Source: Rhodospirillaceae bacterium
GTDB taxonomy: Bacteria > Pseudomonadota > Alphaproteobacteria > UBA6615
NCBI GenBank assembly: GCA_018667335.1
Contig: JABIVD010000005.1
Span: forward strand, 1 to 51,015
Length of the DNA stretch: 51,015 nt
Reading direction: 5' to 3'
Below, in pieces: positions 13,570 to 22,435 of the stretch (its first letter is position 1; the number at the start of each line of letters is the position of its first letter). Position numbers and translations under genes: made by a program. The notes under the pieces are model-generated. The model was given only the letters and a program-made list of their open reading frames with translations, searched no databases and had not been told where the DNA came from.

Positions 13570-13680
13570 CCGAAGCTGCTCGCACCGATCACACCGAATT
13601 GAAGCCCTTGTCATGCGCAAGCCACCGGTCGGCGCGGTAGATTGGCGCGTGGTCAATCACGTGGCCGAGGAGACAATAAT

Positions 13681-14685
<1,005 letters not shown>

Positions 14686-19742: not shown

Positions 19743-20357
19743 ATGACTAAGCGGCATTCCGCGAAGTACAAGATTGATCGCCGTCTCGGCGAGAATCTCT
19801 GGGGCCGGCCCAAGAGCCCGGTCAACCGCCGTGAGCACGGCCCGGGCGAGCATGGTCGCCGCCGCAAGAAGCCGTCGGATTACGGCCTCCACCTGATGGC
19901 CAAGCAGAAGCTCCGCAAATATTACGGTGATGTCGGCGAACGTCAGTTCCGCCGCTATTACGATGAAGCCGTGCGCCGCCGCGGTGACACGGGTGAGAAT
20001 CTGATCGAGCTCCTGGAGCGCCGCCTCGATGCGGTCGTGTACCGGATGAAGTTCGTCCCGACGATTTTCGCCGCGCGCCAGTTCGTCAACCACGGACATA
20101 TCCGGGTGAACGGCAAGAAGGTGAACATCCCGTCCTTCTCAGTGCAGGATGGTGACGTGATCGAAGTGAAGGAAAAGTCACGTGAGCTGCCGCTGGTGCT
20201 GGAAGCGATTGCTTCATCCGAGCGCGATCTGGCCGAGTATATGGATGTCGACCTGAACAGCTTGAAGGGCACCTATCTCCGTGGTCCCAAGCTGGCCGAT
20301 GTGCCTTATCCTGTGCAGATGGAGCCGAACCTGGTCGTCGAGTATTACTCGCTCTGA
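19743..20357 (+). CDS. rpsD: 30S ribosomal protein S4
   Basis: Primary 16S rRNA-binding protein of the small subunit, 204 residues as usual in alphaproteobacteria. Starts [20 protein letters not shown]; the S4 RNA-binding domain ([35 protein letters not shown]) is complete. As often in alphaproteobacteria it stands apart from the alpha operon. It has its own promoter upstream and a strong intrinsic terminator directly downstream. It ends with UGA, which shows UGA still works as a stop codon in this genome. Confidence 0.98.
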
Positions 20358-20382
20358 TCTGTCGTTCGATCCGGACAAATAC

Positions 20383-20410
20383 AAAAGGCCGCCCTCTGGG
20401 CGGCCTTTTT
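20383..20410 (+). terminator. intrinsic terminator after rpsD
   Basis: GGCCGCCC (20387-20394), loop TCT, GGGCGGCC (20398-20405), then five T, with AAAA before the stem. A textbook Rho-independent terminator 30 bp after the rpsD stop; the A-tract also allows it to work for the convergent minus-strand gene. Confidence 0.92.
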
Positions 20411-20438
20411 CGTTGTGCGTCGGGCGGCGGGGCGGCCG

Positions 20439-21056
20439 CTAGCTGGTCGCGTCCTCGCGCAATACAGCCAACACGTCTTCGATGTCGGGGCGCGTGGTGT
20501 AGTGGCGCTCGGAGAAGCGGTGGCTGACATTGCCCGCCGCATCGAGAACAACGATGGCCGGGTGGGGCACGCCATAATAGAAGCTGCCTTGCGGATAGTT
20601 CTCCGCCAGCAGGCCGAACGCCCGGATGATGTCCGAGTTCACGTCCGACAGCATCGGATAGTCGATCTTCTGCCGTCGTTCGAGGCGCCGCAGCTTGCCG
20701 ACATCGTCATATGTAACGGTGGCGACCTCGTAGCCGAGCTCTCGGATTTCATCGATCCTGTCGTTCCAGGCGACCGCCTGGACAATGCAATAGGGTCACC
20801 AGGACAGGGACCGGGAGAAGATCAGGATCAGGCCGCGAGTCTTCTTCAGGGTGACGAAGCTTTGTACCTGATTGCTCTGGTCGGGGACCGTCAGGTCATG
20901 GGGCAGGGGCGTGCCCACCTGCACGCCCTCGCGGATGGCATCCGCGACCTGCGCGGTTGCTGTGTTCGACGACGCCAGGCCGAACAGCAAGACCGCGGCA
21001 AAAGCCAGCGCCCATGCCTTGCGCCATGCCAAGCGTACGTTGTGGGCTATTTTCAT
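20439..21056 (-). CDS. exported peroxiredoxin/thioredoxin-like selenoprotein (UPYC), first of tandem pair
   Basis: Read through an in-frame UGA at 20796-20798, this is a 205-residue AhpC/TSA-like (redoxin) protein. Residues 1-36 form a signal peptide (hydrophobic core ALAFAAVLLFGLA, then SSNTATAQ), so it should act in the periplasm. The active site reads FSRSLSW-U87-PYC90; cysteine homologues of this family have WCPYC at this point. Downstream, QAVAWNDRI, YPMLSDVNSDIIRAFGLL, GVPHPAIVVLDAAG complete a normal redoxin fold ending in VLREDATS. ATG 21056 has GAGG upstream. A SECIS-type hairpin follows the UGA. Probable role: peroxide or disulfide reduction. Alternative reading (nonsense mutation) is unlikely because three further genes show the same pattern. 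Confidence 0.9.
20766..20781 (-). promoter_or_regulatory. candidate bacterial SECIS hairpin, seleno-peroxiredoxin A
   Basis: On the minus-strand mRNA, CCAGGC - GGUC - GCCUGG forms a 6-bp GC-rich hairpin. The GGUC loop begins 20 nt after the UGA, within the usual distance for a SelB-binding bSECIS, and resembles the GGUCU apical loop of the Escherichia coli fdhF element. Confidence 0.75.
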
Positions 21057-21163
21057 ACGAGCCTCAGTTTGGGTGCGTGAAACGTCACGCCGAGACCTGT
21101 AGTGCTTGATTGCGCGGCGACGTTCAAAACACGTTCGTTTGAAGACAGCTCACGCAAATAGCT

Positions 21164-21769
21164 CTACTGGCTTTTCGGGCCGCCCGCTTCTTCGACCGCG
21201 TTGTTCACGATCGTGGCGATCTCATGATCCTCTGTGTAGCCGTGACCGTTGTAGGTGTGGGTCACTATCCCTTCGGCATTCACGACCACCACCATGGGAA
21301 TGGCTGTCCCGCGATAGCGGCTGCCCTCCGGGAACCGATCGTTGAACAGCCCGAAGGCGTTAATCACGCCGCGGTTTTCATCCGAGAGAAGCGGGAAGTC
21401 GATCTTGCGGATCTTGGCGAAGCGCTGAATGGTCGCGACATCATCCGCGGTAACCGACACAACCTCGAGGCCGAGGGATCTGATTTTTTCAATATTTTCG
21501 TTCCAGACGACCGCCTGGTGAATGCAGGTTGGTCACCACGCAAGGGAACGCGAGAACAGCATAACAAGGCCCTTCGTTCCCCGCAGGGTCTCGAAGCCGC
21601 GTACCTGATCGCTCTGATCGGGCACCTCGAGCATATGCGGGATGATCTTGCCCGCAGCGACGTTCTGCGCTTCGGCAGTGCCGGGATTGTGCAGGCTTGC
21701 GGCACCGATCAGCGCCGTGATGGCCAGTGCCTTGCCGAGCTTCGTGGAGAGTAATCTTTTGCCGAACAT
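21164..21769 (-). CDS. exported peroxiredoxin/thioredoxin-like selenoprotein (UPTC), second of tandem pair
   Basis: A 201-residue paralogue of the downstream gene, read through the in-frame UGA at 21533-21535. It has a signal peptide (ALAITALIGAASL, then GTAEAQ), the active site FSRSLAW-U79-PTC82, then IHQAVVWNENIEKIRSLG, FPLLSDENRGVINAFGLF and a C-terminal redoxin half ending in GGPKSQ. ATG 21769 is preceded by GGAG. It is 107 bp upstream of its paralogue on the same strand, probably one transcript. The upstream 105 bp is unusually AT-rich and probably holds the promoter. Likely a periplasmic thiol/seleno-peroxidase or disulfide reductase; the electron donor is not visible. Confidence 0.9.
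21503..21518 (-). promoter_or_regulatory. candidate bacterial SECIS hairpin, seleno-peroxiredoxin B
   Basis: mRNA CCAGGC - GGUC - GUCUGG: the same hairpin as in the paralogue with one C-to-U change that keeps pairing as G-U. The loop again begins 20 nt after the UGA. Confidence 0.75.
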
Positions 21770-21874
21770 AAAACGGGGCTCCGACGTGAACTGTTACCTA
21801 CTAAACACCGTCGATATCAGATTATTCCGTTATATTTCAATTTTCTTATATTCACGTATGCTTTACCGCCGAAC

Positions 21875-22435
21875 CTAGACGTTGCGGGCGCGCTGCTTCG
21901 GTTCGCGGATCGGCTTGGGATGCCCCAGTTTCTTGTTGGTCTTGGACGTCTTTGCCTTGGACTTCTGCAGCGGCATCGGCGGGGTCGTGTTGATCTCCGC
22001 GCCCTTCTTGAAACGGCGGCGTGACGCTGCGCTGTTCCCGGGGAATGGATCCATATCGTCCTTGTCGGTCGCAGCGTACTGGACCTCGATCTTGTTGCCG
22101 TCCGGGTCAAAAACGTTGACCTGGACCATGTTGATGTCGAGCAGAGGCACCATCTCATAGGGTGCGTCATGGTCGCGCAGCTTGCGCTGAAACGTCTTCA
22201 TGCTGCCGCCGGCGCGCAGGGCGAAATGCTCCACCTGGGCTTCGCCGGGTTTGATTTTCTTGACCGATTCCACGAGGTGGACGATCGCGTTGGTGCCGCA
22301 ATAATGCCACGCGCCGCCGAACTGGAAGTTCGGGCGCTTGCCGCGCTTCAGGCCAAGGACGCCTTCATAGAAGGCGGACATATCGTCCAGTTGGGCCGTG
22401 CGGATATTCACATGGTCGAGCCAGAACATAGCCAT
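21875..22435 (-). CDS. VOC (glyoxalase/bleomycin resistance) family protein with basic tail
   Basis: A 186-residue protein. Residues 1-125 form a vicinal-oxygen-chelate fold: start MFWLDHVNIRTAQLDDMSAFYEGVLGL split as DHVNIRTAQL and MSAFYEGVLGL, and end INMVQVNVFDPDGNKIEV. His and Glu in DHV, VEHFAL and KIEV could be metal ligands. The last 50 residues are a Lys/Arg/Pro-rich tail (QKSKAKTSKTNKK) not usual for VOC proteins. Function unknown. It lies upstream of the seleno-peroxiredoxins on the same strand with a 105-bp AT-rich gap. Confidence 0.85.
   Translation of the reverse strand: MAMFWLDHVNIRTAQLDDMSAFYEGVLGLKRGKRPNFQFGGAWHYCGTNAIVHLVESVKKIKPGEAQVEHFALRAGGSMKTFQRKLRDHDAPYEMVPLLDINMVQVNVFDPDGNKIEVQYAATDKDDMDPFPGNSAASRRRFKKGAEINTTPPMPLQKSKAKTSKTNKKLGHPKPIREPKQRARNV

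Follow-up and report, generated by a model that had tools for sequence, protein, structure and literature searches.

Two neighbouring genes in the genome of a member of the Rhodospirillaceae are each interrupted in frame by a TGA codon, at what would be the active site of a peroxiredoxin-like protein. The locus raises the question of whether these codons are read as selenocysteine (Sec) and, if so, what redox work the two products would perform. The stretch of DNA analysed, 51,015 nucleotides in all, is referred to below as the window, and the two genes are called A and B. The features of the locus are as follows.

21164..21769, minus strand: gene A, coding for a probably exported candidate selenoprotein of the peroxiredoxin (Prx) fold, 201 aa (open reading frame, PF00578 match, own-genome search)
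21533..21535, minus strand: in-frame TGA assigned as U79 of gene A, in the motif SLAW-U79-P-T-C82 (translation, homologues)
21665..21769, minus strand: putative signal peptide of A, about residues 1-35 (...GTAEAQ; hydropathy and reading of the sequence)
20439..21056, minus strand: gene B, the tandem paralogue, 205 aa (open reading frame, PF00578 match, own-genome search)
20796..20798, minus strand: in-frame TGA assigned as U87 of gene B, in the motif SLSW-U87-P-Y-C90 (translation, homologues)
20949..21056, minus strand: putative signal peptide of B, about residues 1-36 (...NTATAQ; hydropathy and reading of the sequence)
20383..20409, no strand assigned: terminator-like inverted repeat of 12 pairs, between B and rpsD, whose 3' ends converge

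Gene A, on the minus strand, runs from an ATG at 21769, preceded by GGAG, to a TAG at 21164-21166, and its sole interruption is the TGA, exactly where the initial annotation had placed an in-frame UGA within SLAW-U-PTC. Gene B follows in the same direction, 107 bp behind gene A. Both proteins match PF00578 above its cut-off of 26 (72.2 bits for A and 71.9 bits for B). When protein A was searched against its own genome (E <= 0.001), A and B alone were returned, with one internal TGA each, B being 47% identical to A over the matched part. The tandem paralogy proposed in the initial annotation is supported, and B has a UGA of its own. Each protein contains one Sec and one Cys and no other Cys. 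A changed genetic code was considered and ruled out: rpsD, which lies in the same window and is convergent with gene B, terminates in TGA. Since TGA remains a stop there, the reading at A and B would be a local recoding and not an altered code.

The terminator-like repeat was the best of four sites in the region and was reported for the minus strand only (shuffles averaged 1.6). No sigma-70-type promoter-like site was found in 20300-21950, and Rfam at gathering thresholds returned nothing in the window except one tRNA. The conserved neighbours, named from the translations read, are rpsD, a VOC/glyoxalase-like gene, an EamA/RarD-type transporter, a monothiol glutaredoxin and purL. A functional partner among them was considered and rejected, as the arrangement looks like ordinary chromosomal synteny in the loci viewed. 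Export of both proteins, claimed by the initial annotation, is probable from N-termini that look exported by hydropathy and by reading of the sequence; the putative signal peptide of A coincides with a low-confidence part of the structure model. Elsewhere in the window (13642-14685, plus strand) lies a gene for a DUF3179 protein (272.7 bits) that looks exported and carries a CPLC motif; PMC13188914 lists Sec forms (UxxC/T) of DUF3179.

The cell is predicted to be able to make selenocysteine, since selA, selB, selC and selD are all present. A single contig of the same genome (C5) carries selA (PF03841, 537 bits), selB (466 bits, cut-off 242, with two SelB winged-helix domains), a tRNA-Sec (71.2 bits, gathering score 47; anticodon TCA) and a fusion of selD with a pyridine-nucleotide oxidoreductase domain; all of the sel genes are found in a stretch of about 13 kb. 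The oxidoreductase is the N-terminal part of this selD fusion (L016:16185-18416), which adjoins the tRNA-Sec and is of the Ndh-SelD type; such fusions are mentioned in the accessible part of PMC2398784. Across the order, selB was found in 20 of 24 genomes and tRNA-Sec in 18 of 24.

The UGA codon is conserved in homologues, with Cys in others. Our search of 24 genomes of the order (threshold 1e-15) gave 25 matches in 14 genomes, and TGA was kept at the same codon in 22 of the 25. The three matches without it were the Cys form SLDWCVFC of genome G010, one copy in G007 and a third copy in G002. The G010 gene is the only Cys form in the order, and neither selB nor tRNA-Sec was found in that assembly. 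The third, tandem G002 copy (L045) is missing the active-site/UGA stretch and its frame still continues. In the class, 385 genomes drawn from the larger group were searched at a threshold of 1e-20, with no more than eight candidates per genome scored; among the matches listed, 14 of the 385 genomes matched, and outside the family eight of 12 matches had TGA and four had Cys. The search of related genomes proposed in the initial annotation thus found UGA alternating with Cys in G010, and A and B together, both with UGA, in seven genomes of two genera (G000, G021, G022, G023, G003, G004 and G008).

Damage and loss were also observed. In G007, the A copy reads TAA in place of the Sec codon and contains two more TAA codons, and the B copy departs from the family's sequence after about residue 150, although the genome has selB and tRNA-Sec. 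Damage to both copies (L030, L042 / L022) indicates that decay does happen in the family; in this genome it could be genuine decay or poor assembly. G020 carries a single B-like gene with TGA, and its assembly yielded no selB and no tRNA-Sec. This counts against the selenoprotein reading; the assembly is 87% complete, however, and with the sel genes of the window's own genome as close together as they are, one absent contig could explain the missing genes. No homologue was matched in G018, G019 and G005, which belong to the same two genera as the carriers of A and B, although selB was found in them, so the function would be dispensable. G006 keeps A alone, with rpsD next behind it.

Folding and the alignment of relatives revealed a hairpin of the bacterial SECIS type after each UGA.

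21503..21518, minus strand: SECIS hairpin of gene A, CCAGGC-GGUC-GUCUGG
20766..20781, minus strand: SECIS hairpin of gene B, CCAGGC-GGUC-GCCUGG

The loop begins 20 nt after the UGA in both genes, and a 6-bp stem closing a GGUC loop at this distance was present in 25/25 close TGA copies (22 from the order and three from the class, 22 distinct rows). Over the distinct rows, 132/132 stem cells were paired. One pair had changed on both sides in three sequences (G-C to A-U), two stem pairs were altered on one side with pairing kept (8 cells), and shifting the partner by 1-3 columns reduced pairing to 0-51%. Two of five whole-structure measures were no better than shuffles, namely pairs changed on both sides (195/500) and further pair types (500/500). 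In the 24 copies scanned, the stem was 6-7 bp, the loop GGUC and the spacing 20 nt; four remoter TGA copies have a 6-7 bp stem and a 5-nt loop at the same place, as does a fifth judged by eye. The SECIS-type stem was absent from all five Cys homologues, whose best stems (3, 5, 4, 2 and 4 bp) lay elsewhere, at different spacings. In the damaged A copy of G007, the stem pairs and the loop is GATT, no longer GGUC.

The protein sequence by itself favours the stem: among random synonymous versions of 24 sequences, generated with the family's codon use, 18-49% retained the stem and 3-9% the stem with a GGUC loop, per sequence, the sequences being related and hence not independent. The lowest-energy single-sequence fold of 63 nt was a competing helix in G000A, G003A and G006A, with hairpin probabilities of 0.92, 0.18 and 0.72, respectively, over the 60 nt after the UGA. 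When the first 11 nt were removed, the hairpin probability was 0.93-1.00 in 10/10 copies tested. The bSECIS rules, as given in the accessible text of PMC13188914, specify a loop of 3-9 nt, an upper stem of 4-16 bp, a G in the first two loop positions, a location 16-37 nt after the UGA and an energy of -7.5 kcal/mol or lower. The 16-nt hairpin alone has an energy of -7.4 kcal/mol in gene A, just short of this limit, and -10.1 in gene B; in a 49-nt context, the energies ranged from -8.5 to -18.4 in 10 copies. The hairpins of A and B fit these rules, which are loose, as the best stems in three of the five Cys homologues are also 4-5 bp.

The comparison of dN with dS on the two sides of the UGA, which had been proposed as a check, was made by the Nei-Gojobori method within a genus (4 genomes, 6 pairs; upstream part, 38 codons before the UGA); between genera, dS was near or past saturation. 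For gene A, dN was 0.00-0.05 and dS 0.65-1.26 before the UGA, and 0.05-0.10 and 0.41-0.70 after it. For gene B, the corresponding values were 0.00-0.05 and 0.42-0.65 before, and 0.06-0.10 and 0.34-0.56 after. With dN well below dS on each side, the counts point to purifying selection both before and after the UGA, somewhat weaker downstream. The G020 gene was exceptional before the UGA (dN 0.28-0.40 versus other B copies). At invariant residues, synonymous variation was seen at 2 of 18 positions in codons 1-9 after the UGA versus 113 of 217 elsewhere (P = 0.0009; 4 genomes of the genus), this bin having been picked from ten-codon bins after they were inspected; such low variation is as expected of an RNA element located there. 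The dip was weaker in genus g3, where 4/9 codons vary in A and 2/8 in B. Excess nonsynonymous change or downstream stops, which the initial annotation had named as grounds for refutation, were encountered in G007 only, among the genomes keeping A or B.

It is highly improbable that the TGA codons are real stops, in decayed genes or through sequencing errors, because damage to both copies in G007 is outweighed by the same TGA codon in 22 of 25 matches from separately assembled genomes, by a dN that is low before and after the UGA within the genus, by SECIS pairing maintained through compensatory changes and by a Cys form in the order member without found Sec machinery. With the conserved codon, the hairpin and the sel genes together, the selenocysteine reading is upheld, as is the earlier dismissal of error and decay, and A and B are very probably a genuine tandem pair of selenoprotein genes. 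SelB and tRNA-Sec would decode each UGA, directed by the SECIS hairpin just downstream.

The tree of 36 sequences suggests how the pair arose. The nine A copies were grouped (100/100), as were the nine B copies (93/92), and A and B were sisters (96/93), so one duplication would have preceded the divergence of genera g1 and g3. Divergence after this duplication was unequal (stem 0.47 for A and 0.11 for B). The g2 copies and the single G011 copy (genus g6) formed their own group (95/92), for which a separate duplication in another lineage is the simplest reading; the g2-type pair of G001 likewise adjoins rpsD. The G020 gene (L031, L071) was considered as a clean A/B chimera, and this was rejected: in ten-codon steps before the UGA, it was nearer A at two and nearer B at three. 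In the stretch from the last ten codons before the UGA to some 80 codons past it, the gene was nearer B, a pattern that is only suggestive of recombination between A and B.

The functional pair or redox relay suggested in the initial annotation is a possible reading; a dedicated Sec-to-Sec relay, in which one of the two proteins reduces the other, seems to us unlikely. It would suit two genes 107 bp apart on the same strand, both with UGA in seven genomes and with unequal divergence after duplication; however, G006 has A alone, G020 has one B-like gene, and A and B are about 2.2 kb apart in G021. The A-only and single-gene genomes indicate that the pair is not obligatory. Similarly doubtful is a broader form of the proposal, that labour was divided after duplication, that A and B act as an in-series periplasmic selenol-to-selenol couple fed by DsbD, and that the duplication was favoured twice independently at the same chromosomal place. 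Such a couple would be the selenium version of the reducing pathway that leads from DsbD to TlpA/DsbC.

Whether the products of this selenoprotein gene pair are peroxidases or thiol:disulfide oxidoreductases depends on the fold and the active site. The structure model of A (nine sequences) had a mean pLDDT of 73; the ten-residue blocks from 71 to 190 reached 82-95, and residues 1-35 and 45-61 were under 50. The best of the 50 Foldseek matches listed and re-ranked with VIA-align was Bcp4 (3hjp; Z 20.4, rmsd 2.5 over 152 residues), and the predicted fold of A is that of a peroxiredoxin. In the model, U79 is located directly ahead of helix 80-91. U79 replaces the Thr of TPGC in the 5epf alignment, and Cys82 aligns with the Cys of TPGC. 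Pro158, invariant in 22/22 sequences, is matched in 2cx3 by the Arg of KRAVFIV; in the PrxQ alignments, the Arg lies one column before Pro158, a position occupied in the family by Ile, Val, His, Tyr or Trp, never by Arg. We take the Arg aligned near Pro158 to be the catalytic Arg of peroxiredoxins, and it is missing either way, as neither alignment puts an Arg at the position; thioredoxins carry a cis-Pro at the position of Pro158.

A peroxiredoxin proper is defined by TxxC together with the active-site Arg. Here, the Thr position is occupied by Sec79, and a residue other than Arg was found at the Arg position in 22/22 sequences. Because Sec replaces the Thr of TxxC and the Arg is missing, the active site is a thioredoxin-like UxxC on a peroxiredoxin scaffold. 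The term seleno-peroxiredoxin in the initial annotation therefore suits the fold and not the active site. The two window proteins scored below the cut-off of every NCBIfam model listed: the SelL-related redox protein (NF040769) scored 25.3 and 29.3 bits, below its cut-off of 120, and ResA (NF002854) scored 35.8 bits for A, below its cut-off of 170, B not being among the matches listed.

We somewhat favour DsbD-linked thiol:disulfide work over peroxidase work. The genome encodes DsbD (DsbD_N, DsbD_TM and Thioredoxin_7), and DsbD_N is fused to a UGA-containing UxxC Prx-like domain in both long homologues scanned out of three (L058 and L065; 38.2 and 37.9 bits, cut-off 25). These distant fusions hint that the family takes electrons from DsbD. 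The probably exported products would fold as a peroxiredoxin/TlpA-like thioredoxin domain, and since the Sec and the Cys of U-x-x-C are the only redox residues, the chemistry would have to go through the selenolate. The selenolate would attack a disulfide or a peroxide, the partner Cys would resolve the intermediate as a selenenyl-sulfide, and the most likely reductant to recharge this bond in the periplasm would be the transmembrane DsbD-type enzyme of the genome. The open reading frames, UGA codons, SECIS hairpins, Sec machinery, conservation, single Sec/Cys pair, missing Arg, DsbD gene and DsbD_N fusions are seen in the sequences themselves; export, the substrate, the reductant and any division of labour between A and B are points that we infer.

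The strongest competing explanation is a true thiol peroxidase, with Sec79 or Cys82 as the peroxidatic residue and UxxC as an intramolecular resolving couple. It is a possible reading, which we consider the less probable one. Foldseek and HMMER place peroxiredoxins above thiol:disulfide oxidoreductases, the best sequence and fold matches being Bcp/PrxQ, AhpE and related peroxiredoxins, and this ranking, like the alignment of Cys82 to the Cys of TPGC in 5epf, keeps a peroxidase role in consideration. However, the Thr of TPGC is replaced by Sec79, Pro158 is invariant with no Arg at it or one column before it, and neither window protein reached an NCBIfam peroxiredoxin cut-off.

Compared with Bcp/PrxQ and AhpE (3hjp, 2cx3 and 5epf), A shares the overall fold (Z about 18-20) and the position of Cys82 but differs in having Sec for the Thr of TxxC, in lacking an Arg both at the Arg position and beside it, and in having no other Cys. 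ResA-type thiol:disulfide oxidoreductases have a cis-Pro near the active site. They are exported, as A and B probably are, and have a CxxC-type pair where the first helix begins, whereas their sequence similarity to A and B is weaker (22-31 bits).

The closest likeness is to a Prx-like thiol:disulfide oxidoreductase selenoprotein ('Prx-like 1', pfam00578, UxxC) described in the accessible portions of PMC1088965, PMC1794560 and PMC2398784 and of the reviews PMC9312934 and PMC13188914, in which reviews the 'Prx-like UxxC' family is given as predicted. A and B appear to belong to this family, being placed there by PF00578 and the motif (UPTC and UPYC) and not by a published representative sequence. 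They resemble it in the PF00578 domain, in UxxC replacing TxxC/TxxU, in the existence of Cys forms and in the bacterial SECIS; they differ in forming a tandem pair, probably exported, within a single alphaproteobacterial family, and stand apart by the invariant Pro near the lost peroxiredoxin Arg.

An annotation that takes TGA as a stop would truncate both genes at the active site. The Cys form, the damaged pair, the single-gene survivors and the apparent second duplication make the family a comparative case for why Sec is kept over Cys. Side-by-side selenoprotein genes are reported in PMC2398784 and PMC13188914, and our limited search of the open literature, as far as its text was accessible, found no case of Prx-like paralogues paired in tandem. 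The published neighbours are of different families, whereas A and B are paralogues by local duplication; the protein type is already known, and the conserved side-by-side gene pair is a new example.
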